The translations under genes were made by a program, and so were the position numbers. From positions 1 to 64,000 of the forward strand of contig NZ_CDBI01000074.1 in assembly GCF_000820025.1 (NCBI RefSeq): DNA of 64,000 nucleotides, read 5' to 3'. The notes below the pieces were generated by a model that was not told the origin of the DNA, searched no databases, and saw only the letters and a program-made list of their open reading frames with translations. Shown here piece after piece: positions 16,097 through 40,661 of the stretch (position 1 is the stretch's first letter; each line of letters starts with the position of its first letter). The DNA is from Aeromonas popoffii (GTDB lineage Bacteria; Pseudomonadota; Gammaproteobacteria; Enterobacterales; Aeromonadaceae).

Positions 16097-16172
16097 ATTA
16101 TCATTATGATAATTTACCCACCTTGCCTATCAATTCGCTGCCCGTATCTGATAGCCAGGGTGATAATTATCA
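16097..16172. promoter_or_regulatory. Two palindromic sites, probable YgeV enhancer
   Basis: A perfect 8-1-8 palindrome, ATTATCATTATGATAAT (16097-16113), and a perfect 12-bp palindrome, TGATAATTATCA (16161-16172), share the half-site ATTATCA. They lie 224 and 160 bp upstream of the sigma-54 promoter of ygeW, a normal distance for enhancer-bound activators. Similar sites recur before ygfK and xdhA. Confidence 0.65.
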
Positions 16173-16320
16173 GCGCATATCCTGGCACTATTTTAAATGT
16201 CACTGAGGTGTGCCGGCATTTATCGTGAAAGTGCCCCCCAGTATGTCTAAATGGCGCTCTCCTGTGCGCTGGCGCACATCTATTTTCCTGTTTTTCGTTA
16301 TTCCTCCTGAAATACCGCAT

Positions 16321-16336
16321 TGGCACGCTTATTGAT
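16321..16336 (+). promoter_or_regulatory. Sigma-54 promoter of ygeW operon
   Basis: TGGCAC, five bases, then TTGAT. This matches the -24/-12 consensus TGGCAC-N5-TTGCW except A for C in the -12 GC. It is about 110 bp upstream of the ygeW start, and the gene before it encodes a sigma-54 activator. Confidence 0.7.
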
Positions 16337-16444
16337 TGCTTTTATTTGACGCTGACCGATGAACTCACCCAATGACCCTATTTTCGGTGACCTTGTGAGT
16401 GGAAGGGGAGCAATCCATATCTCATCAACAGATTGGGGCTAACG

Positions 16445-17632
16445 ATGAAAGCAGTGAACCAGTTAATCAAAGAGATCAATGAGCTCAAATCCAACCTGCA
16501 TGAAAAGGACTTTCTGCTGACCTGGGAGCAGACCCCCCAGGAGCTGGCGCTGGTCCTCAAGCTGGCCGAGGCCCTCAAGGGGCTACGGGCCGAGAACATC
16601 GCCACCAGGCTGTTCAATACCGGCCTGGGTATCTCGGTGTTTCGTGACAACTCGACCCGTACCCGTTTCTCCTATGCTTCGGCCCTGAACCTGCTTGGCC
16701 TCACCCAGCAGGATCTGGACGAGGGCAAATCCCAGATTGCCCACGGCGAGACGGTGCGTGAAACCGCCAACATGATCTCGTTTTGCGCCGATGCCATCGG
16801 TATTCGCGATGACATGTATCTGGGGGCGGGCAACGCCTACATGCGTGAAGTGGGTGCGGCACTGGACGAAGGGTTCGAGAAGGGGGTGCTGCCCCAGCGC
16901 CCGGCCCTGGTCAACCTGCAGTGCGACATTGATCACCCGACCCAGTCCATGGCTGATCTCGCCTGGCTGCAGGAGCACTTCGGCAGCCTGGAGAGCCTCA
17001 AAGGCAAGAAAATTGCCATGACCTGGGCCTACTCCCCGAGCTACGGCAAGCCGCTCTCCGTGCCCCAGGGCATCATAGGGCTGATGACCCGCTTCGGCAT
17101 GGACGTGACCCTGGCGCATCCCGAAGGGTATGACCTGATCCCGGACGTGATCGCGGTGGCCCATGAGAACGCCAAGGCCTCCGGCGGCAGTTTCCGTCAG
17201 GTCACCTCCATGGAAGAGGCGTTCAAGGACGCCGATATCGTCTATCCCAAGTCCTGGGCTCCCTACAAGGTGATGGAGCAGCGCACCGAGCTGCTGCGGG
17301 CCAACGACCACGCCGGCCTCAAAGAGCTGGAGAAACACTGTCTGGAGCAGAACGCCAAGCACAAGGATTGGCACTGCACCGAGGAGATGATGGCCCTTAC
17401 CAAGGGTGGCGAAGCGCTCTATATGCACTGCCTGCCCGCCGATATTTCCGGCGTTTCCTGTCAGGCGGGCGAGGTGAGCGAAGGGGTATTCGAGAAATAC
17501 CGCATCGCTACTTATAAAGAGGCGAGCTGGAAGCCCTATATTATCGCCGCCATGATAGTTGCCCGTAAATTCTCGGCGCCGGGCGCCGCGCTTGAGGGCT
17601 TGCTCAAAGAGGCGCAGAAGCGCGTCAAATAA
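16445..17632 (+). CDS. ygeW: Knotted transcarbamylase YgeW
   Basis: A 395-residue protein, the length of E. coli YgeW, belonging to the aspartate/ornithine carbamoyltransferase superfamily. The carbamoyl-phosphate loop is FRDNSTRTRFSYAS (about 67-80), with a second signature DIDHPTQSMADL (about 163-174) in place of the usual HPxQ. The HCLPAD motif (about 328-333) is present. Its natural substrate is not firmly known; work on the cluster suggests it releases carbamoyl phosphate from a ureido intermediate of purine breakdown, which YqeA would use to make ATP. The start ATG 16445 is downstream of the sigma-54 promoter, with GGGG as a weak ribosome site. Confidence 0.93.
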   Translation: MKAVNQLIKEINELKSNLHEKDFLLTWEQTPQELALVLKLAEALKGLRAENIATRLFNTGLGISVFRDNSTRTRFSYASALNLLGLTQQDLDEGKSQIAHGETVRETANMISFCADAIGIRDDMYLGAGNAYMREVGAALDEGFEKGVLPQRPALVNLQCDIDHPTQSMADLAWLQEHFGSLESLKGKKIAMTWAYSPSYGKPLSVPQGIIGLMTRFGMDVTLAHPEGYDLIPDVIAVAHENAKASGGSFRQVTSMEEAFKDADIVYPKSWAPYKVMEQRTELLRANDHAGLKELEKHCLEQNAKHKDWHCTEEMMALTKGGEALYMHCLPADISGVSCQAGEVSEGVFEKYRIATYKEASWKPYIIAAMIVARKFSAPGAALEGLLKEAQKRVK

Positions 17633-17638
17633 TGGTTG

Positions 17639-17669
17639 GGCCGGGCCGGGAACATTTTCCCGCCCGGCC
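17639..17669 (+). other. Strong hairpin between ygeW and ygeX
   Basis: GGCCGGGC pairs with GCCCGGCC, continued by GGGAA/TTCCC after one bulged C, around a short loop. There is no T run, so it more likely stabilises or partially attenuates the transcript than fully terminates it. An ATTATCA follows at 17684. Confidence 0.5.
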
Positions 17670-17757
17670 ATCATGGCGAAATTATTATCACGAGTTCTCT
17701 CCCCGGGGCTCATTTTAATCAATGTCCCTCGGCGAGATGACTCTCTGTGAGGTATTC

Positions 17758-18957
17758 ATGTCCCAATTTTCTCTGAAGATGGATATTGCCGATAACCGCT
17801 TTTTTACCGCCGAGCCATCACCGCTGTTTTCCCGTGTTGAAGCACAAAAGGCGCGTGCCTTTCATAAAAAACTGGCCGGTTATGAGCCGACCCCCCTGTG
17901 CGACCTGAAAGCGCTGGCCGCCTATATCGGGGTGAAAAATATCTTGGTCAAGGACGAGTCAAAGCGCTTTGGCCTCAATGCCTTCAAGATGCTGGGTGGC
18001 GTTTACGCCATCGCCAACCTGCTCTGTGAAAAATACGGGGTGGCCATCGAGGATTTCTCCTTCGATCTCATCAAACGCACCATCAAGGAGCCGATGACCT
18101 TTGCCACCACAACCGATGGCAACCACGGTCGCGGCGTCGCCTGGGCCGCCAAGCAGGTGGGGCAGCATGCGGTGGTCTACATGCCCAAGGGTTCCACGCA
18201 GGAGCGGGTGGATCACATCCTGGCGCTGGGGGCCGAGTGTATCGTCACCGACATGAACTATGACGACACAGTGCGCCTGACCATGAAGATGGCCCAAGAG
18301 CGCGGCTGGCACATAGTGCAGGACACCGCCTGGGAGGGTTACACCAGGATCCCGACCTGGACCATGCAGGGTTACTCCACCCTGGCCGACGAAGCGGTCG
18401 AGCAGATGCAGGGGATGGGTATCAAGCAGCCCACTCACGTGCTGCTGCAAGCCGGGGTCGGGGCGCTGGCGGGTGGGGTGCTCGGTTATCTGGTGGACTG
18501 CTTCGGGGCGAGAAACCTGCACAGCATAGTTATCGAGCCGGATCAGGCCGACTGCATCTACCGCTCCGGCGTGGCGGGGGAGATGGTCAATGTGGGGGGC
18601 GACATGCGCACCATCATGGCCGGTCTCGCCTGCGGCGAACCCAATCCCCTCGGCTGGCCGCTGCTCAAAAGCTGCACCACCCAGTTCATCTCCTGCCATG
18701 ACAAGGTATCGGCGCTGGGCATGCGGGTGCTGGGCAATCCCCTTGGCAATGACCCTCGCATCATCTCCGGCGAGTCCGGCTCGGTCGGTACCGGCGTGCT
18801 GGCGGCGGTGCGTCATCACCCGGATCGCGCGGCGCTGATGGCGCGTCTCGGGCTAAGTCGCGACGCCGTGGTGCTGATCATCAACACCGAAGGGGATACC
18901 GATGTGACCCACTACCGGGAAGTGGTGTGGGAAGGCAAACACCCGGCCTGCGATTAA
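17758..18957 (+). CDS. ygeX: 2,3-diaminopropionate ammonia-lyase
   Basis: A 399-residue PLP enzyme of fold type II (dpaL in recent naming). It converts D- or L-2,3-diaminopropionate to pyruvate and ammonia. Lys77 in GLNAFKMLGG is in the position of the PLP-binding lysine and Asp120 in TTTDGNHGRG in that of the acid/base residue of the E. coli enzyme. A glycine-rich phosphate loop follows (AGVGALAGGVLG, about 235). ATG 17758 follows GTGAGGT and gives the family length; an upstream in-frame ATG at 17722 lacks this. It lies 125 bp after ygeW in the same direction. Confidence 0.95.
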   Translation: MSQFSLKMDIADNRFFTAEPSPLFSRVEAQKARAFHKKLAGYEPTPLCDLKALAAYIGVKNILVKDESKRFGLNAFKMLGGVYAIANLLCEKYGVAIEDFSFDLIKRTIKEPMTFATTTDGNHGRGVAWAAKQVGQHAVVYMPKGSTQERVDHILALGAECIVTDMNYDDTVRLTMKMAQERGWHIVQDTAWEGYTRIPTWTMQGYSTLADEAVEQMQGMGIKQPTHVLLQAGVGALAGGVLGYLVDCFGARNLHSIVIEPDQADCIYRSGVAGEMVNVGGDMRTIMAGLACGEPNPLGWPLLKSCTTQFISCHDKVSALGMRVLGNPLGNDPRIISGESGSVGTGVLAAVRHHPDRAALMARLGLSRDAVVLIINTEGDTDVTHYREVVWEGKHPACD

Positions 18958-19095
18958 CCCGGCTGCGAGTCACTTCCTGCAAGAGCAGAGACACGAATTG
19001 AAGAATTGATCGCGCCTCGCCCACGGGGCGCGGTGACGGGTACAGGGCGTTGCCGACGAACAGGCCGCCCACTCTCGAATGTTTGGAGAATCACA

Positions 19096-20313
19096 ATGAG
19101 CAAGCAAATTCCGTTTGAAATGGTGTTGGAGAAGGCTTACCAGTACAAGGCCGAGATGAGTCAGTTCCTGCGCGACATGATCGCCATCCCGAGTGAAAGC
19201 TGCGACGAGAAGCGGGTGGTGCTGCGCATCAAGCAGGAGATGGAAAAAGTGGGGTTCGACAAGGTCGAGATTGACCCCATGGGTAACGTGCTGGGCTATA
19301 TCGGTCACGGCCCGCACCTGATTGCCATGGACGCCCACATAGATACCGTGGGGGTCGGCAACATGGCCAACTGGACCTTCGACCCCTATGAGGGGATGGA
19401 AGATCACGAGATCATCGGTGGCCGTGGCGCCTCCGATCAGGAAGGGGGTATGGCCTCCATGGTCTATGCCGGCAAGATCATCAAGGATCTGGGGCTGGAA
19501 GATCAATACACCCTGCTGGTGACCGGCACAGTACAGGAGGAGGACTGCGACGGTCTGTGCTGGCAGTACATCATAGAGCAGAGCAAGATCCGCCCCGAGT
19601 TCGTGGTCAGTACCGAGCCGACCGACTGCCAGATCTACCGTGGCCAGCGTGGCCGCATGGAGATCCGTGTCGAGGTGCAAGGGGTGAGCTGCCACGGCTC
19701 CGCGCCGGAGCGTGGTGACAACGCCATCTTCAAGATGGGCCCGATCCTGGGCGAGTTGCAGGCGCTCAGCCACAACCTCGGCAACGATGACTTTCTCGGC
19801 AAGGGCACATTGACCGTCTCCGAGATCTTCTTCACGTCGCCAAGCCGCTGCGCCGTGGCAGACAGCTGCGCCGTCTCCATCGACCGCCGTCTCACCTGGG
19901 GCGAGAGCTGGCAAGGTGCGCTGGACGAGATCCGCGCTCTGCCTGCGGTGCAAGCCGCCGGAGCCGAGGTCTCCATGTACCAGTACGATCGTCCGGCCTA
20001 CACAGGTCTGGTCTATCCGACCGAGTGCTACTTCCCGACCTGGAAGGTGGAAGAGGATCACATCACAGTCCGGACCCTCTCCAAGGCTTATACCCAGCTG
20101 TTTCGCAAGGAGCCGGTGGTGGACAAGTGGACCTTCTCGACCAACGGGGTCTCCATCATGGGTCGCCACGGCATTCCGGTCATCGGCTTTGGCCCGGGTA
20201 AAGAGCCGGAGGCCCACGCGCCGAACGAGATGACCTGGAAAGAGCATCTGGTCAAGTGCGCCGCCATGTACGCGGTGATCCCCATGCTCTATCTGGCCGA
20301 GCTGGACAACTAA
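19096..20313 (+). CDS. ygeY: M20-family metallohydrolase YgeY
   Basis: A 405-residue enzyme of the ArgE/DapE/CPG2 (M20) family. Metal-site motifs are in order: MDAHIDTVG (about 77), [10 protein letters not shown] (about 112), QEEDCDG (about 150), STEPTD (about 175) and the dimerisation/lid domain from about 185 to 300. These enzymes hydrolyse amide or carbamoyl-amine bonds with two Zn or Co ions. In the island it probably frees diaminopropionate from an acyl or carbamoyl derivative made in purine breakdown, feeding YgeX. ATG 19096 is preceded by GGAGA; an earlier in-frame start is not supported. A hairpin (19011-19032) precedes it in the gap after ygeX. Confidence 0.93.
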
Positions 20314-20324
20314 GGGGGGGGGGG
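20314..20324 (+). repeat. Eleven-G homopolymer after ygeY
   Basis: An uninterrupted run of eleven G immediately follows the ygeY stop codon. It is non-coding and 110 bp before hyuA. Such runs slip during replication and in sequencing, so its length here should be treated as uncertain. Confidence 0.8.
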
Positions 20325-20433
20325 CGGAGGGCGCGCGCTATCGTCGCCCTACTGTTGCAAGTGTGGCAAGTACCCCGTCGTGGTCAGGCGGGGCCTTGGT
20401 GTTTGAAGCGATCTGAGGTTCGAGGTGGTGGGG

Positions 20434-21870
20434 ATGAAACGGCTGATCAAAAACGGTGTGCTGGTCGATTCACAAGGGGAATATCGTCAGGATCTGCTGA
20501 TCGAAAACGGGGTGATCCGCGCGCGAGCCGCCGATATCCAGCCCGATGGCGAGACCGAGGTGATCGATGCCAGCGGCTGCTATGTGATGCCCGGTGGCAT
20601 CGATGTCCACACCCACTTCAACATCGATGTCGGCATTGCCCGCAGTTGCGATGACTTTTTCAGCGGTACCCGTGCCGCCGCCTGTGGTGGCACCACCACC
20701 ATCGTCGATCACATGGGATTTGGCCCGGCGGGGTGCAATTTGCATCACCAGCTGGCCCGTTATCACGATTACGCCGCCGATCAGGCGGTGATCGACTACA
20801 GCTTTCACGGCGTGATCCAGCATGTGGATGACGCCATCCTTAATGAGATGGCCGCCATGGTGCAGGAGGAGGGGATCAGCAGCTTCAAGCTCTACCTCAC
20901 CTACCAGTACAAGTTGGGGGACCATGACGTGCTGCGCGCCCTGGCCCGCCTCAAAGAGGTGGGGGCGCTCGCCACTGTCCATCCCGAGAATGACGCTGCC
21001 ATCGCGGCGCGCCGTGCCGACCTGTTGGCTGCGGGCCACCATGAACCCTGGTATCACCCGCAAAGCCGTCCGCTGGAGTGCGAAGCCGAAGCGGTGGCCC
21101 GGATGATCAATCTGGCGGGGCTCGCTGGCAATGCGCCGCTCTATATCGTCCACCTCTCCAACGGACTGGGGCTGGAGTATCTGAAACTGGCGCGCCGTCA
21201 GGGTCAGCCGGTCTGGGTGGAGACCTGCCCGCAATATCTGCTGCTCGATGATTCCTGCTATTACCGGGAGAACGGTGTCGACTTCCTGTTGAGCCCGCCG
21301 CTGCGAGGGCGCAGCGAGCAGGACAAGCTGTGGGTCGGCGTCGCTGCTGGCGACATCGATACGGTGGCGACCGATCACTGCAACTTCTCCCACGCCCAGC
21401 GCATGACCCTGTCAGGGGGCGATTTCAGCCGCTGCCCCAATGGCTTGCCTGGGGTCGAAAACCGGATGCTGCTGCTGTTTGCCCACGGTGTGCTCGGTGG
21501 GCGCATCTCGCCGTCCCGCTTCGTGGCGCTCACCAGCGCCAATTCGGCGCGCCTGTTTGGCCTCTGGCCGCGCAAGGGCAATCTGCAGCCGGGGGCCGAT
21601 GCCGATCTGGTGTTGATGGATCCCCGTGGCGAGACCCAAATCCGCCACGCCGCGCTGCACGACAACGGCGACTACAGCCCCTATGAGGGGATGCGCTGTT
21701 CCGGCCAGATCAGGATGACCCTGAGTCGCGGCGAGATAGTGGCCCGCGACGGCGAATTTACCGGGCAACGGGGGCATGGCCGCTTTCTGGCCCGGGCACC
21801 CTTTGACCCGAAGCTTGGCGCGGCGGTCAGCGCGCCACCCCCTTGCGCCACGCAGTTGGCAACCCGTTAG
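20434..21870 (+). CDS. hyuA: Hydantoinase/dihydropyrimidinase-type amidohydrolase
   Basis: A 478-residue cyclic amidohydrolase homologous to E. coli HyuA. The binuclear metal site is visible: DVHTHF (His59, His61), the lysine carbamylated in this family (Lys152 in SSFKLYLTY), then ATVHPEN and YIVHLSN for two further His ligands, and the catalytic Asp in TVATDHCNF. Such enzymes open cyclic ureides (hydantoins, dihydropyrimidines); here it would open a ring in purine breakdown. ATG 20434 follows GAGGTGGTGGGG. The C-terminus is about 15 residues longer than E. coli's and Ala/Pro-rich. Confidence 0.93.
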   Translation: MKRLIKNGVLVDSQGEYRQDLLIENGVIRARAADIQPDGETEVIDASGCYVMPGGIDVHTHFNIDVGIARSCDDFFSGTRAAACGGTTTIVDHMGFGPAGCNLHHQLARYHDYAADQAVIDYSFHGVIQHVDDAILNEMAAMVQEEGISSFKLYLTYQYKLGDHDVLRALARLKEVGALATVHPENDAAIAARRADLLAAGHHEPWYHPQSRPLECEAEAVARMINLAGLAGNAPLYIVHLSNGLGLEYLKLARRQGQPVWVETCPQYLLLDDSCYYRENGVDFLLSPPLRGRSEQDKLWVGVAAGDIDTVATDHCNFSHAQRMTLSGGDFSRCPNGLPGVENRMLLLFAHGVLGGRISPSRFVALTSANSARLFGLWPRKGNLQPGADADLVLMDPRGETQIRHAALHDNGDYSPYEGMRCSGQIRMTLSRGEIVARDGEFTGQRGHGRFLARAPFDPKLGAAVSAPPPCATQLATR

Positions 21871-21965
21871 GGCGGGGGCCGTTTGCCACGGCACAAAAAG
21901 CAGCGATAGAGCGAATAATCAAGCCGGTATGACGCCGGCCCACCCTTATCATCGGAGAGCACAAG

Positions 21966-22898
21966 ATGAAACAGCGTATCGTACTGGCCCTGGGGGGCAA
22001 CGCTCTGGGCAACAACCTGCCCGAGCAGATGAAGGCGGTGCAGAGCACGGCGCACACCATCGCCGACCTGATTGCCCAAGGGCACGAGGTGGTGGTCACC
22101 CACGGCAACGGGCCGCAGGTGGGGATGATCCAGCAGGCGTTCGAGGTGGCGGCCCGCCACGACCCCAAGTCTCCCCATCTGCCCATGTCGGTCTGCGTGG
22201 CCCTGAGTCAGGGCTATATCGGTTATGACCTGCAAAACGCCCTGCGCGAGGCGCTGCTTGCTCGCGGCATCCACAAGCCGGTCGCCACTCTGGTGACGCA
22301 AGTGGAGGTGGATAAAAACGATCCCGCCTTCCTCGACCCCAGCAAGCCCATTGGCGGTTTCTTCAGCAAGGAGGAGGCCGAGGTACTGATGGCCAAGGGG
22401 GAGCGGCTCAAAGAGGATGCCGGTCGCGGCTATCGCCGGGTGGTGGCATCCCCCAAACCCATCGACATCATCGAAAAAGAGACAGTCGCTGCCATGCTGG
22501 CCGCCGGTCAGGTGGTGATCACCGTCGGGGGCGGCGGCATTCCGGTGCTGCGGGAGGGGAACCACCTGCGCGGCGTCAGTGCGGTGATCGACAAGGATTG
22601 GGCCAGTGCCAAGCTGGCGGAACTGATTGACGCCGACATGCTGATCATCCTCACCGCGGTGGAGAAGGTCGCCATCAACTTCGGCAAGCCCGATGTGCAG
22701 TGGCTCGATACCCTGAGCGTGGCCGATGCCAACAGCTTTATCGCCCAGGGGCAGTTTGCCAAGGGCTCCATGCTGCCCAAGGTGGAGGCAGCGCTCTCGT
22801 TCGCCACCTCGCTGCCTGGGCGAAAATCTTTGATCACCTTGCTGGAGAAGGCGGCCGAGGGGATCGCTGGCAAAACCGGTACCCTGATCAGCCTGTAG
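21966..22898 (+). CDS. yqeA: Carbamate kinase
   Basis: A 310-residue amino-acid-kinase-fold enzyme, the same length as E. coli YqeA. It makes ATP from carbamoyl phosphate and ADP. Features include the N-terminal LALGGNALG (about 7-15), TVGGGGIPV (about 180) and the substrate-region segment IDKDWASAKLAELIDADMLI (about 204-223). It is the energy-yielding end of this pathway, with YgeW as the likely source of carbamoyl phosphate. It starts 95 bp after hyuA with GGAGAGCACAAG upstream. A strong hairpin follows its stop codon. Confidence 0.95.
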   Translation: MKQRIVLALGGNALGNNLPEQMKAVQSTAHTIADLIAQGHEVVVTHGNGPQVGMIQQAFEVAARHDPKSPHLPMSVCVALSQGYIGYDLQNALREALLARGIHKPVATLVTQVEVDKNDPAFLDPSKPIGGFFSKEEAEVLMAKGERLKEDAGRGYRRVVASPKPIDIIEKETVAAMLAAGQVVITVGGGGIPVLREGNHLRGVSAVIDKDWASAKLAELIDADMLIILTAVEKVAINFGKPDVQWLDTLSVADANSFIAQGQFAKGSMLPKVEAALSFATSLPGRKSLITLLEKAAEGIAGKTGTLISL

Positions 22899-22925
22899 CG
22901 TGCTGCGCGATGACGGGTTGATAGA

Positions 22926-22945
22926 CAGGGGGCCTTGGCCCCCTG
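22926..22945 (+). terminator. Terminator-like hairpin after yqeA
   Basis: CAGGGGGC pairs with GCCCCCTG around CTTG, 28 bp after the yqeA stop. Only a short GTGTTT follows. It probably ends the ygeW-yqeA transcript. Confidence 0.55.
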
Positions 22946-22981
22946 CTGTGTTTGGCAAGGGCGCTGCCGTGGCTGAGGTCG

Positions 22982-25404: not shown

Positions 25405-26997
25405 TTATCTGCGCTTGGCCAAGTGCATCATGGCCTCCAGTACGGCGCCACCGATAGCGCGGGCCTTGTCAGAGACGGTAGTCGCATCGGCGCGCTCGCC
25501 GCGCGGGTCGATATCCCCGATCTTGAAGCCAACCGGCACCTCGATGCCATCGCTGAGCAGCCCCCGCACCATGCCCGATAGCGGCGCGATAATGGGGGCA
25601 TCCCCCACATGGGCAATCACATCGCCCTCCTGCACCAGATCGCCGAGCTTGATAATGCTCTTCATCACCCCGGGGGCGGGGGCGCGCACCACCCGGCGGG
25701 CGGAGTGCCCCTCGATCACCCCGGGAATGCCGGTGTTGGGCTGGGCGGGGCCCTGATAGATGACCCGCCCCAGATGGTGGCCACGGTTGGTCTCGATCAC
25801 TGCATCGCAGTCGCGCCCCGCCTCAAAGCCCGGGCCGAGGGCCACAGTGATAGGGGCCATCTCCTTGTGAGTGCCGAGGTTCTGCTTGGCCAAAATGGCA
25901 TCCACCAGATAGCGGGGCTTGAGCTCACTCAGGGTTGCGCAGTCGGGGTCAACCAGCAGCGGGATAATGCCCCGATCCAGCTGCTCGAACGCCTGCTCGA
26001 CGCTCTCGACCCGCTTGGCGCACACCCCTTCGACACTGGTTTCACCGTCAAACATCCCTTGCGCGAAGGCAACGGTGCGACGGATCACGGTAGGCTTGTC
26101 GAGATCCAGCATCACCACCTTGAAGCCCGCATTGTACAGCCGCAGCGCCACCCCGGTGGCGATGTCGCCGGAGCCGCGCATCACCACCAGCTGATCCCGC
26201 TTGAGGCGCACATCGTCCTGCATCAGGCCACCTGCCTTGCCGTTTTTCACTTGCAAGAGCTCGGCGAGGATGCTGATGGCGATCTCCTCGGGGGTCTCGG
26301 CACCTATGTTGTAGCCGATGGGGGCATGCAAGCACTGCAGTTGCTCCTGACTCACCCCTTGCTGGCGCAGTGCCTGGGTGAAGGTCTGCACCTTGCGCTT
26401 GCTGGCGAGCAGCCCCAGATAGGTGAGGGGACGGGTGATGAGCTTATCCAGCGCCTCCTTGTCCTGATGGTTGGTGGCGATGATGACGAAGTTGGCGGGC
26501 TCGATGGCCAGCGCCTCGATCACCGCGCTGATGGTATCGGCCTGTTTGAGATGGGTGCCGGCGGGGAAGTGATCGGGGTTGAGGCTCCCTTCAAAACAGT
26601 CGCCCACATGGATATCAAAGCCCAGCGGCGCGGCGGCATGGGCCAGCGCCCGGTTGACGTGACCGGCGCCGATCAATACCAGACGGGGGCGCAGCCCGTA
26701 GACGTCGATATAGACCGACATGGCGCCGCCGCAATCCGACCCCACCGCATGTTCGCCGTTGCGGGCCATCCGGCCGTGGAAGATGCGCGGCTTGCGCTCG
26801 GCAATGGCGGCCACCGCCTCGTCGATCACCAGCCGTTCAATCATGCCGCCGCCTATGGTGCCGAGGATCTGGCCATCGGCCATCACCAGCATCTGGGCCT
26901 GATGGCGGGGGGTGGAGCCACGGCTCTCGATGATCTGGGCAATGGCGAACGGGGTGTTGGCTTGTTCCAGCCGGGCTGCGTGTGAAAAAAGATTCAT
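25405..26997 (-). CDS. yqeB: Selenium-dependent molybdenum hydroxylase maturation protein YqeB
   Basis: About 530 residues. The N-terminal half is XdhC/CoxI-like: an opening FAIAQIIESRGSTPRHQAQM and a Rossmann segment LVLIGAGHVNRALAHAA (about 130). A second Rossmann-like part contains VVMRGSGDIATGVALRLYNAG (about 270). The C-terminus has a biotin/lipoyl-like barrel pattern (VRAPAPGVMKSI, DLVQEGDVIAHVG, PLSGMVRGLL). Comparative genomics ties YqeB and YqeC to selD and labile-selenium molybdenum hydroxylases; XdhD here is the obvious client. ATG 26997 has GAGG at good spacing; ATG 27009 also has AAGGA close by. It follows yqeC in the same minus-strand operon. Confidence 0.9.
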   Translation of the reverse strand: MNLFSHAARLEQANTPFAIAQIIESRGSTPRHQAQMLVMADGQILGTIGGGMIERLVIDEAVAAIAERKPRIFHGRMARNGEHAVGSDCGGAMSVYIDVYGLRPRLVLIGAGHVNRALAHAAAPLGFDIHVGDCFEGSLNPDHFPAGTHLKQADTISAVIEALAIEPANFVIIATNHQDKEALDKLITRPLTYLGLLASKRKVQTFTQALRQQGVSQEQLQCLHAPIGYNIGAETPEEIAISILAELLQVKNGKAGGLMQDDVRLKRDQLVVMRGSGDIATGVALRLYNAGFKVVMLDLDKPTVIRRTVAFAQGMFDGETSVEGVCAKRVESVEQAFEQLDRGIIPLLVDPDCATLSELKPRYLVDAILAKQNLGTHKEMAPITVALGPGFEAGRDCDAVIETNRGHHLGRVIYQGPAQPNTGIPGVIEGHSARRVVRAPAPGVMKSIIKLGDLVQEGDVIAHVGDAPIIAPLSGMVRGLLSDGIEVPVGFKIGDIDPRGERADATTVSDKARAIGGAVLEAMMHLAKRR

Positions 26998-27024
26998 AAG
27001 GTACCTCATTTCATCCTTAACGGG

Positions 27025-27879
27025 TCAGGTGCGCGGTGAAGCCACCAGTTCGCCATCCAGAGGGGCCTGGCGCACCACATGACGAATGGCGATAGGCTCG
27101 CGCACCGCCCCCTGCCAGATGGCGTGGATCTCGGGGTGCCGGGCCAGCAGCCTTATCAACTGCGGCTGCCATGACGCCTCATTTTGATAATCGCCATTGA
27201 TAAACCAGATCCGCCGCGCCCTGGCCGGGGTGCCCTTGAACACCCCCTGAGGGTGGGATATGAGCCGGTCAAACAGCGCCCAATCCAGCGGCTCACCGGC
27301 TGTAATCCCGCACAGGGCCTGGAGCTCGGCCCAGCGGTGGATCTGCTGCGGGTCTGCCTTGGCCCCCACCATGGCGCCACCCACCAGGGCGATCACCCAG
27401 TCGCTGCTCAGGGGAATGCAAGGTTCGTGCAAAGCGGGCACTTTCAATAACTTGTGATGGGCGCCGTCTGCCTCCACCAGGATGAGATCGAAGCGCTGCT
27501 GCCCCTTGAGCAGATCGACCTGCTCGGGTGTCAGGCCTGCCACCTTGCCGCTGGTCCGATCGATATGGCTGAACAGGGCGACCAGGGTGGGGCCATCGGG
27601 CACTTGCTGGCAGCGGGTAAGCTGGCGGACGGGGTCGGCTTCCAGGATCAATTCCCGATAGTGTGACTGGGCTGGCAGAAACATCCGGGTGGTGGTGGTA
27701 ATTAACACCCTTTTACCCTGCTGATAAAAATATTCGGCCAGCCAGAACAGGGTGCTGGTTTTGCCGCCTGCGCCACATAGGCTAATTAAGGTAGTACGGC
27801 TATCTATATTTTCGGTGAGCGGGTTTAATAGCGTGTCAATATCAGGAAAGGCACGCTGGACAGGTGAGGTAATGGGCAT
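27025..27879 (-). CDS. yqeC: Selenium cofactor biosynthesis protein YqeC
   Basis: A 284-residue P-loop protein with Walker A GAGGKTS at residues 36-42 and a Walker B-like segment FDLILVEADGAHH (about 132-144). YqeC family proteins are predicted GTPases/ATPases for the labile selenium cofactor of molybdenum hydroxylases. Length is typical plus about 20 N-terminal residues. The ATG at 27879 overlaps the mocA start on the other strand by two bases and has no clear Shine-Dalgarno, so the true start may be a non-ATG codon further in. Divergent from mocA, upstream of yqeB. Confidence 0.88.
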   Translation of the reverse strand: MPITSPVQRAFPDIDTLLNPLTENIDSRTTLISLCGAGGKTSTLFWLAEYFYQQGKRVLITTTTRMFLPAQSHYRELILEADPVRQLTRCQQVPDGPTLVALFSHIDRTSGKVAGLTPEQVDLLKGQQRFDLILVEADGAHHKLLKVPALHEPCIPLSSDWVIALVGGAMVGAKADPQQIHRWAELQALCGITAGEPLDWALFDRLISHPQGVFKGTPARARRIWFINGDYQNEASWQPQLIRLLARHPEIHAIWQGAVREPIAIRHVVRQAPLDGELVASPRT

Positions 27880-28588: not shown

Positions 28589-28645
28589 ATTATCACCCTG
28601 CATGGCCTGATAAAGGCAGGCGTCACGAGATTATCAAACTGATAT
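28589..28645. promoter_or_regulatory. ATTATCA/TGATAA inverted sites upstream of ygfK
   Basis: ATTATCA (28589) pairs with TGATAA (28608), and ATTATCA (28630) with TGATAT (28640). The first lies 224 bp before the ygfK sigma-54 promoter, the same distance as the first site before ygeW. Probable YgeV binding sites. Confidence 0.55.
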
Positions 28646-28812
28646 TCAATCCCGCCAACGTGAGACTTTCTCAGCATCGGGCGCTATTACAATGTTATTA
28701 ACTCACGTTATTGATAGCCACTCTCATCCCCGAGGCCGGTATTGCAAGTCGATACATCATTAATTCGAGGTGCCTCACGCTTTTACGCTCACAAATTAAA
28801 ATGTGCCGGCAC

Positions 28813-28828
28813 TGGCCTGATTGTTGCT
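28813..28828 (+). promoter_or_regulatory. Sigma-54 promoter of ygfK operon
   Basis: TGGCCT, five bases, TTGCT, with exact GG-N10-GC spacing. It is 85 bp upstream of the ygfK ATG in a 400-bp non-coding region that otherwise holds only the motifs described before it. Confidence 0.8.
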
Positions 28829-34251: not shown

Positions 34252-37145
34252 TGGAACTCAACTTTACCCTGAACGGTGCCCTGCGTACCGTCATCTGCAA
34301 GGCCGGTGATAACGCCCAAATGGTGCTGTTCAACCAGTGCCGGATGCACTCGGTGCGCAACAGCGACGACGGCTTCGGTTTCGCCGGCTCCGACGCCATC
34401 CTGTTCAACGGCAAGGTGATCAACGCCTCCCTGCTGATCGCCGCCCAGCTGGATGGATCAGAGGTGCGCACCGCCGAGTCGCTGGGCAGCTGGAACCAGC
34501 TCAGTCTGGTGCAGCAGGCGATGGTAGATGTGGGCGTGGTGCAGTCCGGCTACAACGATCCGGCCGCCGCGCTCATCGTCACCGACCTGCTTGATCGCCA
34601 CCCCGAGCCCACCCGTGATCAAATCGACGATGCCCTCTCGGGCCTGTTTCACCGCGATGGCGGTTACCAGCAGTTCTATCAGGCTATCGAGCTTGCCTGT
34701 TCGCGGATGAAGAACCCGGATTATCTGTGCCAGATCGCCCCCGAGTTTCGCGACGATCTGCGCCATATCGGCAAGAGCTGCCCGAAAGTGGACGCCGCCA
34801 AGATGGTGCAGGCCAAGCCCTGCTACGTGGAGGACAGGGTCACCGAGGATGCACTGATCATCAAGATGCTGCGCAGCCCCCATCCCCATGCGGTGATCAC
34901 CAAACTCGACGTGAGTCGTGCCGAAGCGCTGCCGGGCGTCGTGCATGTCATCACCCACCTCAACTGCCCGGATGTGTTTTACACCCCGGGTGGTCAGAGT
35001 GCTCCCGAGCCGTCACCGCTCGATCGCCGTATGTTCAGCCGCAAGGTGCGCCACGTGGGTGACCGGGTGGCCGCCGTGGTGGCCGAGAGCGAAGCGGTGG
35101 CGCTGGCGGCCCTCAAACTCATCGAGGTCGAGTATCAGGTGCTGCCTTCGGTCATGAACATCGATGAGGCGATGGCCCCCAATGCACCACTGGTCCATGA
35201 CGAGCCCATCCTCTACATGGCCGGTGCGCCAGCGGATCTGGAGCAGCAGAACGCCTGCTCGGTACGTCGTGGCGACGAGCACATGATCATCAACTTCCCC
35301 ATCGGTTCCCGTCCGCACGAGAACCTGGCGGCCAGCGTCCATGGCCAGATCGGTGATGTGGCCAAAGGCTTTGCCGAGGCGGACGAGATTGTCGAGCGCA
35401 CCTACGAATCGACCCAGGCCCAGCAGTGCCCGACCGAGCCGCACATCTGCTTCACCTACATGGATGGGGATCGTCTGGTCATTCACGCCTCCACTCAGGT
35501 GCCGTGGCACGTGCGCCGTCAGGTGGCGCGCATCGTCGGCCTCAAGCAACATCAGGTGCATGTGATCAAGGAGCGGGTAGGGGGCGGCTTTGGCTCCAAG
35601 CAGGACATCCTGCTGGAAGAGGTGTGCGCCTGGGCGACCAGGGTCACCGGCCGTCCGGTCACCTTCCGCTACACCCGTGAAGAGGAGTTCATCAGCAACA
35701 CCTCCCGCCACGTGGCCAAGGTGAAGGTGAAAGTGGGGGCCAAAAAAGATGGCACCATCACCGCCATCGAGATGGATTTTCGCGCCAACACCGGCCCTTA
35801 CGGCAACCACTCATTGACGGTGCCGAGCAATGGCCCGGCACTCTCTTTGCCGCTCTATCCGTGCGACAACGTGCGCTTTACCGTCAACACCTACTACAGC
35901 AACATCTGCCCAACTGGCGCCTATCAGGGTTACGGCGCGCCCAAGGGTAACTTCGCGCTGACCATGGCCATTGCCGAACTGGCGGAGAAACTGGGCATCG
36001 ATCAGCTCGACATGGTGGAGCACAACCGGGTGCACGAAGGGGATATCCTCAAGGTGCTGGGGGCCATCGGTGAGGGCAAGATGCCTACTTCTGTACCCCA
36101 CGCCGCCAGCTGCGCTCTGGAACCCATCCTCAAGCAGGGTCGGGAGCTTATCGCCTGGGACAGCCCCAAACCCGCAGACGGGGATTGGCGCATCGGCCGT
36201 GGCGTCGCCATCATCATGCAAAAATCGGGGATCCCCGACATCGATCAGGCCAACTGCATGGTCAAACTGGAATCGGACGGCACCTTTATCGTCCACTCCG
36301 GTGGCGCCGATATCGGCACCGGCCTCGATACCGTGGTGGCCAAGCTGACCGCCGAGGTGCTCGGTTGCCCGCTCAGCGATGTGCATGTGATCTCTGGCGA
36401 CACCGATCACGCCCTGTTCGACAAGGGGGCCTACGCCTCGTCAGGTACCTGCTTCTCCGGCAACGCGGCCAAGATGGCGGCCGAGAACCTCAAGGAGAAA
36501 ATCCTGTTCCACGGCGCCGCCATGCTGGGGGAACCGGTGGAAGATGTAGTACTGGCGTTCCCGGGCATAGTGCGCGGCAAGCTGGGGGAGGTCTCTTTTG
36601 CCAAGATTGCCCACAAGTCAGAGACCGGCACCGGTTTTGGCATTCTGGTGGGCACCGCCAGCTACATCACCTCTGAGCTTGCCTTCCCGTATGGCGCTAA
36701 TTTCGCCGAGGTGGCGGTCAACGTCAGAACCGGCCAGATCCGTCTCGACAAGTTCTACGCCCTGCTCGACTGCGGCACCCCCATCAACCCGGAGCTGGCG
36801 CTCGGCCAGATCTACGGGGCGACCATGCGGGCCATCGGCCACACCATGACCGAAGAGATCTGCTACGACGGCAAGGGCATCCCGCTCACCCGGGATCTGA
36901 AGAGCTATGGCGCGCCCAAGATTGGCGACATTCCCCGCGATTTTCGGGCCTTCCTGGTGCCGAGTGATGACAAAGTCGGCCCTTACGGCGCCAAGTCCAT
37001 CTCGGAGATCGGGGTGAACGGCGCCGCGCCCGCCATCGCCACCGCCATCCACGACGCCTGCGGTGTCTGGCTGCGCAAGTGGCACTTCACGCCGGAGCAG
37101 ATCCTGCGCGAACTGGGCAAGCTGGAGCACAACGTGTCGGCATAA
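34248..37145 (+). CDS. xdhD: Molybdenum hydroxylase XdhD with degenerate ferredoxin domain
   Basis: A 965-residue protein homologous to E. coli XdhD. The C-terminal part (about 190-960) is the Mo-binding XDH domain. It has CYVEDRVTEDALIIKML, the molybdopterin loop ERVGGGFGSKQD (about 441), the segment GAYQGYGAPKGNFA (about 560) and a glutamate in KSISEIGVNGAAPAIA near the C-terminus at the place of the catalytic Glu. The N-terminal 150 residues keep the fold pattern of the two-[2Fe-2S] domain but no cluster cysteines: the first site reads DDGFGFAGSDAILFNG and the second SGYNDPAAALI. E. coli XdhD has lost them too, as far as I recall. Electrons must leave by YgfM, YgfK or another partner. Likely a selenium-dependent hydroxylase given yqeB/yqeC nearby. 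Confidence 0.94.
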   Translation: MMELNFTLNGALRTVICKAGDNAQMVLFNQCRMHSVRNSDDGFGFAGSDAILFNGKVINASLLIAAQLDGSEVRTAESLGSWNQLSLVQQAMVDVGVVQSGYNDPAAALIVTDLLDRHPEPTRDQIDDALSGLFHRDGGYQQFYQAIELACSRMKNPDYLCQIAPEFRDDLRHIGKSCPKVDAAKMVQAKPCYVEDRVTEDALIIKMLRSPHPHAVITKLDVSRAEALPGVVHVITHLNCPDVFYTPGGQSAPEPSPLDRRMFSRKVRHVGDRVAAVVAESEAVALAALKLIEVEYQVLPSVMNIDEAMAPNAPLVHDEPILYMAGAPADLEQQNACSVRRGDEHMIINFPIGSRPHENLAASVHGQIGDVAKGFAEADEIVERTYESTQAQQCPTEPHICFTYMDGDRLVIHASTQVPWHVRRQVARIVGLKQHQVHVIKERVGGGFGSKQDILLEEVCAWATRVTGRPVTFRYTREEEFISNTSRHVAKVKVKVGAKKDGTITAIEMDFRANTGPYGNHSLTVPSNGPALSLPLYPCDNVRFTVNTYYSNICPTGAYQGYGAPKGNFALTMAIAELAEKLGIDQLDMVEHNRVHEGDILKVLGAIGEGKMPTSVPHAASCALEPILKQGRELIAWDSPKPADGDWRIGRGVAIIMQKSGIPDIDQANCMVKLESDGTFIVHSGGADIGTGLDTVVAKLTAEVLGCPLSDVHVISGDTDHALFDKGAYASSGTCFSGNAAKMAAENLKEKILFHGAAMLGEPVEDVVLAFPGIVRGKLGEVSFAKIAHKSETGTGFGILVGTASYITSELAFPYGANFAEVAVNVRTGQIRLDKFYALLDCGTPINPELALGQIYGATMRAIGHTMTEEICYDGKGIPLTRDLKSYGAPKIGDIPRDFRAFLVPSDDKVGPYGAKSISEIGVNGAAPAIATAIHDACGVWLRKWHFTPEQILRELGKLEHNVSA

Positions 37146-37149
37146 CAAA

Positions 37150-37180
37150 GAAAAGGTGAGGGGCGGGCGCAAGCTCGCCC
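37150..37180 (+). other. Hairpin after xdhD
   Basis: GGGGCG and CGCCCC pair around GGC-GCAA-GCT, 12 bp after the xdhD stop. No T run. It may be a leaky terminator or a stabiliser before the xanQ relic. Confidence 0.4.
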
Positions 37181-37188
37181 CCAGCACC

Positions 37189-37347
37189 TGGCTGCAGGTA
37201 AACCGTTATGACCCCATAGGATCGGGCCTGCTTTCCATCCAGTCGGTCAACTTCTCCTTCGTGACCGTGATGATCGCCCTGGGCGGTGCCATGAAGAAAG
37301 ATGGCCTGCACGAGGAGCTGATCGTGCCTCAAGTCGATCGCATCTGA
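37189..37347 (+). pseudogene. Relic of a XanQ-type xanthine permease
   Basis: One frame reads GSGLLSIQSVNFSFVTVMIA followed by a short segment ending MKKDGLHEELI, a signature from the first third of NCS2 xanthine permeases (XanQ/UraA group), then seven unrelated codons and a stop. The family protein is about 460 residues, so over 85% is missing. In E. coli the intact xanQ lies exactly here, between xdhD and guaD. An internal deletion explains it. It should not give a working carrier. Confidence 0.75.
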
Positions 37348-37398
37348 TTGCTGAAGCCACAAGAACGTCAACAGAACAAGAGAAACAGGGAAACGGTT

Positions 37399-38715
37399 AT
37401 GAAAAACGACAACTCTGTCAAAGCGGTGCGCGGCAGCTTCTTCGATATCACCCGGGTGGTGGATCAACCCGAGGAGATTGAGCCCAATGCCCGTCTGGTC
37501 GAGGATGGGCTGCTCATCATTCGCAACGGCTGCATCGACTGGTTCGGTGAGTGGGAAGAGGGCCGGGATCGCATTCCGGCCGAAGTGCGGGTGCGGGATT
37601 ACCGCGGCAAGATGATAGTGCCGGGATTTGTCGATACCCACATTCACTACCCCCAGAGCGAGATGGTGGGGGCTTACGGTGAGCAGTTGCTGGAGTGGCT
37701 CAACCGCCACACCTTCCCGGCCGAGCGGCGCTACAACGATCTCGAGTATGCCCGCGAGATGTCCACCTTCTTTATCAAGCAGCTGCTGCGTAACGGCACC
37801 ACCACGGCGCTGGTGTTCGGCACCGTCCACCCCGAGTCGGTGGATGCCCTGTTCGAGGCGGCGAGCCGCATCAATATGCGGATGATTGCGGGCAAGGTGA
37901 TGATGGATCGCAACGCCCCCGACTATCTGCTCGATACCGCGCAGAGCAGTTATGAGCAGAGCAAGCAGCTTATCGAGCGCTGGCACGGCAATGGCCGACT
38001 GCTTTACGCCATCACACCACGATTTGCGCCCACTTCGACACCCGAGCAGCTGACGATGGCGCGGCGACTGCGCGAAGAGTTTCCCACCACCTATCTGCAC
38101 ACCCATCTGTGCGAGAACAAGGACGAGATCGCCTGGGTCAAATCTCTGTTCCCAGAGCATCAGGGCTATCTCGATGTCTATCACCAGCATGGCCTCACCG
38201 GCCACAACTGCGTGTTTGCCCACTGCGTCCATCTGGAAGAGCAGGAGTGGGATTGCCTGAAGGAGACCGGCTCCACCATCGCGTTTTGCCCCACCTCGAA
38301 TCTTTATCTGGGCAGTGGTCTGTTCAAGCTGCACAAGGCGTGGCGCAAGCAGATAAAGGTGGGGATGGGCACCGACATCGGTGCGGGCACCACCTTCAAC
38401 ATGCTGCAGACCCTCAACGAGGCTTACAAGGTGATGCAGTTGCAAGGGGAGCGGCTCTCGGCCTATCAGGCTTTCTATCTGGCCACCCTGGGCGGCGCCC
38501 ATGCGCTGGGGCTGGATGAGAAGATCGGCAGCTTTGCGCTGGGCAAGGAGGCGGATTTCGTGGTGCTCGACCCGGTCGCCACCCCGCTGCAGCAGCTGCG
38601 TTATGACAACTCCACCACCCTGCGGGACAAGCTCTTTGTGCTGCTGACGTTGGGGGATGACAGATCCATCTACCGCACTTATGTGGATGGCCAACTGGTG
38701 CACGAACGGGGGTAG
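37399..38715 (+). CDS. guaD: Guanine deaminase
   Basis: A 438-residue amidohydrolase, one residue from the E. coli GuaD length. It deaminates guanine to xanthine. Metal and substrate motifs are [12 protein letters not shown] (about 74-85), [11 protein letters not shown] (about 233), VFAHCVHL (about 273) and the Asp in [10 protein letters not shown] (about 330). AGGGA precedes ATG 37399. It supplies xanthine to the XDH enzymes encoded on either side. It follows the xanQ relic in the xdhD-to-ghxQ line. Confidence 0.96.
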
Positions 38716-38795
38716 GGGATGGAGGGGCTGCCACGGCGCAGCCCCGAGGATACGGTGGCTGGCGTGCCCACAGGGAGGCCAACACCCAAGTAAGA

Positions 38796-38814
38796 GCGGG
38801 GCACGTTTCCCCGC
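38796..38814 (+). terminator. Hairpins between guaD and ghxQ
   Basis: GCGGGG pairs with CCCCGC over a 7-base loop; another stem (GGGGCTG with CAGCCCC, 38723-38744) lies before it. Neither has a T run. The 278-bp gap also holds a weak GG-N10-GC match near 38900, not convincing as a promoter. Confidence 0.35.
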
Positions 38815-38993
38815 AACAGAAGGTGAAATGGCCCGGTTTTTTTGATCAGCAAGGCAAACGTTTGAGTCAAGGCTGCCTCTCCTGGTCTCTCTGTCGCGTC
38901 AGGCTGTGGCCACACAGACTGGACATAAACAGATCCACAGATCCTGCCGCCATTTCGTCATGGAACACTCAGGCGTATGTGAAGGAGTTGGGT

Positions 38994-40403
38994 ATGACCC
39001 AAGCAAACAGCAGGACAAACAGCGTGGAACCGCTGGCCAATGATGACGCCGGCAAGAGCGCATCGCAGCAACAGCCGATCACGGCTCTTGATCGCTACTT
39101 CATGATCAGCGAGCGGGGCAGCAACGTCAGACAGGAGGTGCTGGCGGGGCTCACCACTTTCCTTGCCATGGTCTACTCGGTGATCGTGGTGCCGGGTATG
39201 CTTGGCAAGGCGGGCTTTCCCCCCGGCGCCGTGTTTGTCGCCACCTGTCTGGTGGCAGGCTTTGGTTCGCTGCTGATGGGGCTCTGGGCCAAGCTGCCCA
39301 TGGCCATCGGCTGCGCCATCTCGCTCACCGCCTTTACCGCCTTCAGCCTGGTGCTGGGGCAGCAGATCCCCATTCCGGTGGCGCTGGGCGCCGTCTTCCT
39401 GATGGGGGTGATCTTTACCGCCATCTCGGTGACCGGGGTGCGTAGCTGGATCCTCGACAACCTGCCGATGGGGATCGCCCACGGCACTGGGATCGGGATC
39501 GGTCTCTTCCTGCTGCTCATCGCCGCCAACGGGGTGGGGCTGGTGATCAAGAACCCGCTGGAGGGGCTGCCGGTAGCGCTGGGGGCCTTTACCTCCATGC
39601 CGGTCATCATGTCCCTGATTGGCCTTGCGGTGATTGTCGGGCTGGAGAAGCTGAAAGTACCGGGCGGGATCCTGCTGGTGATCATCGCCATCTCCCTCTT
39701 CGGCCTCATCTTCGATCCGGCGGTGACCTATCAGGGGCTGTTCGCCCTGCCGAGCCTCTCGGACGAGCAGGGCAAGTCCCTCATCTTCACTCTGGATATC
39801 ATGGGGGCCCTCTCGCCGCTGGTGCTGCCAAGCGTGCTGGCGCTGGTGATGACGGCGGTGTTTGATGCCACCGGCACCATACGGGCGGTGGCGGGGCAGG
39901 CCAACCTGCTGGATCAAGATGGTCACATCATCAACAGCGGCAAGGCGCTCAGTGCCGACTCCCTCAGCAGCATCTTCTCCGGCCTGGTGGGGGCTGCGCC
40001 GGCTGCCGTCTATATCGAATCGGCAGCGGGCACGGCAGCGGGTGGCAAAACCGGCCTGACCGCCACCGTGGTCGGCGGCCTGTTCCTGTTGATGCTGTTC
40101 CTCTCGCCGCTCTCCTATCTGGTGCCGGCCTATGCCACGGCGCCGGCCCTGATGTACGTGGGGCTGCTGATGCTGAGCAACGTCACCAAGCTCGATTTCG
40201 ATGACTTTGTCGGCGCCATGTCCGGCCTGCTGTGCGCCGTCTTTATCGTGCTCACCTGCAATATCGTCACCGGCATCATGCTGGGCTTCAGCGCCCTGGT
40301 GATTGGCCGCATCTGCTCCAACGAGTGGCGCAAGCTCAATCCGGGCACCGTCATCATTGCCCTTGCGCTGGTGCTCTTCTACGCCGGTGGCTGGGCCATC
40401 TAG
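38994..40403 (+). CDS. ghxQ: Guanine/hypoxanthine permease (NCS2, AzgA-type)
   Basis: A 469-residue inner-membrane carrier with about 12-13 helices after a hydrophilic N-terminus of 35 residues. AzgA/GhxQ signatures are [14 protein letters not shown] (about 51), [28 protein letters not shown] and [14 protein letters not shown] (about 288), and [16 protein letters not shown] (about 343). It imports guanine or hypoxanthine with protons for GuaD and XDH. AAGGAG at good spacing decides ATG 38994. The position matches E. coli, where ghxQ follows guaD. Confidence 0.92.
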
Positions 40404-40433
40404 TCCAGGGGGCTGGTGTCATTACGGGAGTCT

Positions 40434-40470
40434 CATCGGGGGTGACCGACAGGTGGCCCCCGATGCTTTT
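40434..40470 (+). terminator. Terminator after ghxQ
   Basis: CATCGGGGG (40434-40442) pairs perfectly with CCCCCGATG (40457-40465), followed by CTTTT. It separates ghxQ from the xdhABC promoter. Confidence 0.75.
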
Positions 40471-40491
40471 CGGGCGCGGCAGGTACCATTT

Positions 40492-40518
40492 TGATAATGG
40501 GGATTACCAGATTGATAA
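40492..40518. promoter_or_regulatory. TGATAAT motifs upstream of xdhABC
   Basis: TGATAAT (40492-40498, inside a CCATT/AATGG inverted repeat) and TGATAA (40513-40518) lie 154 and 133 bp before the sigma-54 promoter of xdhA. Same half-site as before ygeW and ygfK. Confidence 0.5.
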
Positions 40519-40645
40519 CGGGTCGTATGCCAGCGGTTGAATGTGCATGAAAAATCGGCAATCCGGCAACGCCATCAGCCTGGCCGGGGTGCCGGATGGG
40601 ATCTTCTTCACACTTATCCTCATCGCTGGCCTGTCTGCGGGAAAC

Positions 40646-40661
40646 AGGCGCATATCTTGCT
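40646..40661 (+). promoter_or_regulatory. Sigma-54 promoter of xdhABC
   Basis: AGGCGC, five bases, TTGCT, with exact GG-N10-GC spacing, 49 bp upstream of the xdhA ATG. The rest of the 306-bp gap has no supported ORF. Confidence 0.65.

Follow-up and report, generated by a model that had tools for sequence, protein, structure and literature searches.

A conserved palindrome at sigma-54 promoters of the uric-acid gene cluster of Aeromonas popoffii, very probably a binding site of YgeV

Sigma-54 promoters require an activator, and the reductive uric-acid gene cluster of Aeromonas popoffii raises the question of which protein serves its sigma-54 promoters and at which DNA site it acts. The stretch investigated here, referred to as the window, consists of 64,000 nucleotides (positions 1 to 64,000 of contig NZ_CDBI01000074.1 in NCBI RefSeq assembly GCF_000820025.1) within a genome of 4.76 Mb in 105 contigs. 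It is highly likely that YgeV, encoded next to ygeW, binds a palindrome of 17 base pairs (bp) shared by these promoters, and that by looping of the DNA it activates these promoters, those of ygeW, ygfK and xdhA from an upstream site and that of yqeB from a downstream one.

The palindrome and the sigma-54 boxes of ygeW, ygfK and xdhA

The shared site is the 17-bp palindrome ATTATCA-N3-TGATAAT, with the core TMTCA-N3-TGAKA. The elements of the three promoters, and the genes that go with them, are the following:

14097..16028, plus strand: ygeV, sigma-54 activator with weak GAF and PAS matches, an AAA+ domain and a Fis-type helix-turn-helix (HTH) (Pfam Sigma54_activat 1.1e-72, HTH_8 1.5e-10)
16097..16113, unstranded: YgeV-type site of the ygeW promoter, ATTATCATTATGATAAT (14/14, 25.6 bits)
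16151..16167, unstranded: possible weak second site of ygeW, ATAGCCAGGGTGATAAT (right half only; matrix score below -3 bits)
16321..16336, plus strand: sigma-54 box of ygeW, TGGCACGCTTATTGA (TTGA for TTGC at -12; the E. coli orthologue, CTGGCACACTTATTGTT, is positive in chromatin immunoprecipitation (ChIP), PMC4591121)
16445..17632, plus strand: ygeW, knotted carbamoyltransferase (NCBIfam PRK07200)
28589..28595, plus strand: isolated half-site of ygfK, the 224-bp site of the initial annotation (9/14 only)
28630..28646, unstranded: YgeV-type site of the ygfK promoter, ATTATCAAACTGATATT (13/14, 21.5 bits)
28813..28828, plus strand: sigma-54 box of ygfK, TGGCCTGATTGTTGC (E. coli orthologue ChIP-positive, PMC4591121)
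28913..32035, plus strand: ygfK (TIGR03315, 1617 bits)
40482..40498, unstranded: YgeV-type site 1 of the xdhA promoter, GGTACCATTTTGATAAT (13.7 bits)
40503..40519, unstranded: YgeV-type site 2 of the xdhA promoter, ATTACCAGATTGATAAC (13.9 bits; 21 bp from site 1)
40646..40661, plus strand: sigma-54 box of xdhA, AGGCGCATATCTTGC (E. coli orthologue ChIP-positive, PMC4591121)
40710..43028, plus strand: xdhA (PRK09970, 1298 bits, the match beginning at residue 39 of a longer open reading frame (ORF) that starts at 40596; the ATG preceding the family match was taken as the start)

The words ATTATCA/TGATAAT occur in these regions at 16097, 16107, 16161, 16166, 28589, 28630 and 40492. The whole window contains 14 such words against 3.65 expected, a number that was reached in none of 100 shuffles. 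Scored as a full palindrome, the best match was 14/14 for ygeW (16097), 13/14 for ygfK (28630) and 12/14 for xdhA (40503), each with p = 0.001 in 1000 shuffles of the region, and a second xdhA match at 40482 reached 11/14. The half-sites were rejected as the binding unit, as the full palindrome scores better.

The consensus of GG at -24 and GC at -12, 12 bp apart, is present at ygfK and xdhA; the ygeW box has TTGA at -12, and in the yqeC box described below TG replaces GG. With two mismatches or fewer, the window contains 98 box matches where 99 are expected. Being at chance level, the boxes by themselves are no evidence and were rejected as such, and they become credible only through relatives. 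For E. coli, sigma-54 ChIP-sequencing located boxes at xdhA, ygeW, ygfK, ygfT and a promoter internal to yqeC (PMC4591121), and genomic SELEX (systematic evolution of ligands by exponential enrichment) gave a peak of the RpoN holoenzyme between ygeV and ygeW (PMC8743547). In most relatives the -12 element of the ygeW promoter is TTGT, TTGA or TTGG and not TTGC, an unusual case of a conserved weak -12 element.

For comparison, 80 loci around ygeW were fetched and their genes were mapped by tblastn. A matrix trained solely on the ygeW promoters of 25 lineages was then applied to other promoters, in a first run with 400 bp for targets and 250 bp for controls and in a rerun with 400 bp for all. 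Sites with p ≤ 0.05 were found within the 400 bp upstream of ygfK (28/28), xdhA (11/13), ygfT (6/6) and uacT (2/2), one common site serving uacT and ygfT of E. coli in these counts. Both xdhA misses of the first run were from Endozoicomonas, and the rerun gave 12/13, one Endozoicomonas locus being borderline through Monte Carlo variation. Among the control genes, ygeX (0/47), yqeA (5/37) and ygeY (3/48) were scored at 250 bp, and ygeX (0/47), yqeA (5/37), ygeY (1/48), hyuA (4/49) and ssnA (0/12) at 400 bp. A score of at least 12 bits was reached in the rerun by one of 193 control regions, by 28/28 for ygfK and by 10/13 for xdhA. A palindrome near a sigma-54 box is conserved in relatives at the promoters of ygeW, ygfK and xdhA.

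The sites are also helically phased with respect to the boxes. The palindrome lies 224 bp from the box at ygeW (16097 to 16321) and 183 bp from it at ygfK (28630). Distances at ygfK fell at 163-164, 173-174 and 183-185 bp, steps of one turn, in 26 of 29 loci (the window included; L003, which repeats the window, was removed from the 30 listed), and the outliers at 111, 112 and 144 bp belong to two Mixta loci and one enterobacterial metagenome-assembled genome (MAG). At xdhA the distances were 111-114, 132-134 and 143 bp (12 loci). Second sites were 20-21 bp apart from the first in 11 of 16 cases at ygfK and 9 of 12 at xdhA. The ygeW distances were looser, from 141 to 238 bp in 51 loci, with R = 0.46 for a 10.5-bp phase over distinct values. 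The one-turn steps together with the pairs at 20-21 bp form the pattern expected from a looping activator that binds as tandem dimers.

The initial annotation, made from the window alone, had named the shared words and the three -24/-12 elements at 16321, 28813 and 40646; the words are present and in excess, and the boxes are where it had placed them. The distance of 224 bp that it gave for two promoters applies to ygeW; for ygfK it had been measured from the isolated half-site, so that the agreement is partly coincidence, and 224 bp was rejected as a fixed distance. What it had taken for half-sites at xdhA are two adjacent imperfect palindromes, 40482 and 40503. All three promoters remain in the proposed regulon, to which a fourth site within yqeC, missed at the time, is added here.

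As a sigma-54 enhancer-binding protein, YgeV would bind the 17-bp palindrome as dimers, often at two sites 20-21 bp apart, and by DNA looping would activate the sigma-54 polymerase at the reductive uric-acid/purine promoters. Activation of ygeW, ygfK and xdhA would proceed from upstream in the usual manner, whereas yqeB would be activated from a coding site in yqeC, downstream of its intragenic promoter.

A sigma-54 promoter and a palindrome inside yqeC

The fourth site is found among the following elements:

27025..27879, minus strand: yqeC reading frame (TIGR03172 YqeC, 198.6 bits; 42% identity to E. coli YqeC)
27418..27432, minus strand: intragenic sigma-54 box for yqeB, TTGCACGAACCTTGC (TGAGCACGAACCTTGCA in E. 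coli, where mutation has proven the promoter, PMC4591121)
27175..27191, unstranded: YgeV-type site inside yqeC (13.0 bits; 241 bp downstream of the yqeC box)
25405..27009, minus strand: yqeB, the gene that the intragenic promoter is predicted to serve (TIGR03309 matur_yqeB, 389.5 bits)

In E. coli, mutation proved that a sigma-54 promoter inside yqeC drives yqeB, and its activator was left open (PMC4591121). The site in the window is its fifth-best matrix match and lies 166 bp before the ATG of yqeB (27009); the product of this gene is 67% identical to E. coli YqeB, the first residue of which aligns at 26997. The E. coli yqeC palindrome is TTTCTCAATGTGAGAAT. In 22 of 24 yqeC genes, five of the 22 from Aeromonas, the distance from the box downstream to the start of the palindrome is exactly 241 bp, and the two genes without it at this distance are both from Endozoicomonas. 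No second conserved sigma-54 box was seen between the yqeC palindrome and yqeB. A site was present upstream of yqeB in 35 of 37 regions, 13 of the 37 having no yqeC before yqeB and an intergenic region in common with ygfK, which means that for these 13 this test and that of ygfK are not independent. It is probable that yqeC carries an intragenic sigma-54 promoter together with a YgeV enhancer 241 bp downstream of it, working backwards from the transcribed region, and that this arrangement is common to Aeromonas and Enterobacterales; we read the palindrome as a downstream enhancer for yqeB embedded in coding sequence.

The site is part of the yqeC coding sequence as well as of a transcribed leader, and yqeB is missing from the YgeV iModulon as printed (PMC12132413, where the list may be a selection); instead of an enhancer, the palindrome might accordingly be a mere consequence of the protein sequence, or form an RNA hairpin in the leader of yqeB. 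This is unlikely. Synonymous recoding seldom yields the palindrome, its score being reproduced with p from 0.001 to 0.03 in each of 17 yqeC genes, and the top peaks of synonymous conservation, computed from sequence pairs that are not independent, coincide with the box (E. coli codons ~134-140) and the palindrome (214-219). There is selection on these silent positions. The mean amino-acid identity is just 0.43 over the palindrome versus 0.52 between box and palindrome. The stretch from box to palindrome is free of gaps in 17 yqeC genes, with gaps in both flanks, so that the protein, and not the DNA alone, may account for the fixed 241 bp. The same word also occurs upstream of other promoters, outside any such leader. 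Finally, in seven Klebsiella-type loci without yqeC before yqeB, a similar box is located 80-138 bp before yqeB in all seven, and in five of them (two Pluralibacter, two Klebsiella and one Enterobacter) a non-coding palindrome is kept downstream of that box, 74-86 bp before yqeB and with 8.9-19.1 bits, besides the site shared with ygfK. Residual yqeC coding in these leaders was rejected (best tblastn E = 1.4).

The downstream position, roughly +215 to +231 when the start is deduced from the box, would also suit a protein that represses yqeB transcription or acts on it as a roadblock instead of activating it. We regard this role for YgeV as quite unlikely: the corresponding yqeB site of Pantoea, Mixta and Erwinia is located upstream of a sigma-54 box, the usual position of an activator site, and the sigma-54 promoter needs an activator. 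In 19 of 22 genes a search of the region upstream of the yqeC box, extending to 600 bp at most, gave no other site above 8 bits (four of these genes with only 205-292 bp searchable). As to NtrC, a consensus of its binding site gives only matches with two or three mismatches in the E. coli region. That NtrC drives the promoter, as suggested by the nitrogen-limitation data of 2015 in which the yqeB transcript was induced, is improbable to much the same degree, the authors of that work having seen "no obvious connection" between YqeB and nitrogen starvation and having considered other activators to be probably active then (PMC4591121).

YgeV and its co-occurrence with the palindrome

Activation by YgeV, from the yqeC site as from the upstream sites, is the reading that we prefer, and YgeV is very probably the protein at the palindrome, judging from its domains and from comparative sequence data. 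YgeV of the window has the AAA+ sigma-54 interaction domain of an enhancer-binding protein (PF00158, 1.1e-72), with GAFTGA visible in the alignment, and a Fis-type HTH (PF02954, 1.5e-10). It is 63% identical to E. coli YgeV, the start of which aligns at ~14136, and a 16-residue stretch of the HTH is identical in the two proteins. The HTH helix G-I-G-I/V-A-T-L-Y-R-K is conserved in 46/46 listed orthologues. No receiver domain was among the domain matches of the window protein (14097-16028), which has weak GAF and PAS matches instead; YgeV/IsrR is labelled an orphan response regulator in PMC9426417, the gene having been renamed isrR in enterohaemorrhagic E. coli for its indole response.

A separate observation concerns the N-terminus of YgeV (14136-14930), in which four cysteines (C84, C87, C93 and C109, numbered from 14136) are invariant in 28/28 aligned orthologues and adjoin the weak GAF and PAS matches. 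This four-cysteine region is possibly a metal or iron-sulphur redox sensor. Candidates for the signal to which YgeV responds are a purine, formate and the redox state.

The region upstream of ygeW was scanned with the window consensus unchanged in 80 regions, namely those of 79 fetched loci (one upstream was too short) and of E. coli K-12. A site with p ≤ 0.05 was detected in 24 of 46 regions with ygeV nearby (median best 11/14, Fisher p 2.7e-26) and in 4 of 34 without ygeV in the fetched stretch (median 9/14, Fisher p 0.33), where the combined p-values are too small, as there are several loci per genus and the sequences are related. Three of the four exceptions are Aeromonas species with ygeV elsewhere in the genome. 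The remaining 30 of the 34 loci had no significant site, the search for ygeV in these 30 being confined to the fetched stretch. In A. fluvialis (L090/L123), ygeV contains two in-frame TGA codons, yet the ygeW site and box are retained; this is either decay or sequencing error.

The YgeV regulon put forward in the initial annotation is supported by the conservation of motif and boxes at the three promoters, by the published sigma-54 binding at the E. coli orthologues and by the presence of the same genes in the YgeV iModulon. At ygeW, a significant site was lacking in 30 of the 34 loci with no ygeV in the fetched stretch. That the initial annotation knew of no described YgeV site also agrees with the open-access literature, in which our search, with RegulonDB and subscription papers outside its scope, turned up neither a YgeV site nor a yqeC enhancer.

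Several points weigh against this reading, beginning with the relatedness of the sequences and with the ygeW scan itself, where only 24 of the 46 regions with ygeV nearby reached significance. The E. coli ygeW site alone has p = 0.11, and the ygeW sites of Pantoea, Mixta and Erwinia are weak, with p = 0.70 in Pantoea L043 and p = 0.71 in Erwinia L047. In the window, too, the sites of xdhA and yqeC, and in this genome that of uacT, are weak (11.5-13.9 bits), those of xdhA and yqeC being the weakest of their kind. Endozoicomonas possesses ygeV without clear sites at xdhA or yqeB, and the fourth exception of the ygeW scan, a Rhodoferax MAG, carries both site and box but gave no ygeV match at E ≤ 1e-80. 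The control gene yqeA was positive in five of its 37 regions. From the printed iModulon list yqeB is missing, and ybiY, which is on it, has no site in the preceding 130 bp. Binding by YgeV, activation and enhancer action at these sites are what we infer from the data. That the palindrome is bound by another regulator of the same genes, a second activator or a repressor, is nevertheless very unlikely: the Rhodoferax case, the indirect placing of YgeV at the palindrome and a Crp site mentioned for the E. coli ygeV-ygeW region (PMC12507026) would allow it, but site and ygeV co-occur in most loci having either, even with ygeV distant, palindrome and spacing fit a Fis-type enhancer-binding protein, and the 30 loci cited above are without both within the fetched stretch.

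Further targets and known systems

The reductive uric-acid cluster of the window includes ygeV, ygeW, ygeX, ygeY, hyuA (hydantoinase), a carbamate kinase gene, yqeB and yqeC, as well as mocA, ygfK, ssnA, ygfM, xdhD, guaD, a gene for a xanthine/uracil-type permease and xdhABC; the enzyme roles in reductive uric-acid breakdown are taken from PMC12507026. Among the named fetched loci, the closest YgeW was that of Aeromonas bestiarum (98%).

The exact core TMTCA-N3-TGAKA occurs 14 times in this genome and the reversed-pattern control 8 times; among the 14, only the ygeW and ygfK sites exceed 20 bits. A third of the 14, TATCAAAGTGAGA with 11.5 bits, lies outside the window on contig C57, ~320 bp upstream of uacT (L124/L097); a second, degenerate copy follows after 41 bp, and the only sigma-54 box is a poor one. 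This uacT is a probable further target of YgeV. In six other genomes TMTCA-W3-TGAKA gave 27 matches versus 5 for the reversed control. Fifteen of the 27 preceded genes of purine catabolism; yqeB is counted among these, as are permease genes at a great distance from the cluster. In Morganella these made up six of eight matches, at ygeW, xdhA (by position), yqeB, a UacT-like permease gene and two XanQ-like permease genes; the numbers were 3/5 in Escherichia, 3/5 in Serratia, 1/6 in Edwardsiella, 1/2 in Klebsiella and 1/1 in A. bestiarum. One further match, at an Edwardsiella GhxQ-like gene (L128), is possible. The other 11 appear unrelated to purines and are taken as chance; a family scan of the genes flanking nine of them (all except L111 and L115) found a UvrA-like ORF, an ABC transporter and a fimbrial usher, among others. 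No site was found in the 130 bp upstream of E. coli ybiY or in the 205 bp upstream of aegA. The proposed regulon extends beyond three promoters: in the window it also takes in yqeB, and elsewhere in this genome or in relatives it includes uacT, ygfT and genes for purine permeases.

Two details may be noted. The three purine permease genes of Morganella (L133, L135 and L136), all outside the fetched cluster, have both a site and a sigma-54 box. In Serratia oryzae (L112) a xanthine-dehydrogenase-like gene has a site of 21.5 bits, with a sigma-54 box 118 bp on.

YgeV hereby gains a candidate DNA site that can be tested, and in gut and aquatic gammaproteobacteria uric-acid genes that lie scattered are tied into one regulon. 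The yqeC site offers a candidate answer to the question of the activator of the intragenic E. coli promoter, left open in 2015. If true, a downstream enhancer written in codons would mean that the control sites of intragenic sigma-54 promoters, like the promoters themselves, can be located within genes.

FleQ of Pseudomonas is a sigma-54 activator that uses sites downstream of some promoters, with a different regulon; no passage confirming this downstream action was found in the one paper searched. For YgeV, expression data had already given the regulon in outline (the YgeV iModulon), and the promoters had been located by ChIP and by genomic SELEX. As printed, the iModulon of E. coli comprises xdhABC, ygeWXY, hyuA, ygfK, ssnA, ygfM, xdhD, ygfT, uacT, ybiY and rcsB (PMC12132413). 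It covers the same operons as the three promoters of the window; it differs in being derived from expression, with no binding site in the passages of PMC12132413 concerned, in the absence of yqeB and in containing ybiY, which lacks a site here. The boxes at xdhA, ygeW, ygfK, ygfT and inside yqeC on the E. coli sigma-54 promoter map are orthologous to those discussed above, and the part of PMC4591121 on the yqeC promoter leaves its activator open and describes no enhancer for it. A functional counterpart of YgeV is DioR of the Clostridiales, an enhancer-binding protein with its own predicted site, which is predicted to control ygeW-ygfK-ssnA-ygeY, yqeB and pbuX (PMC6615313).

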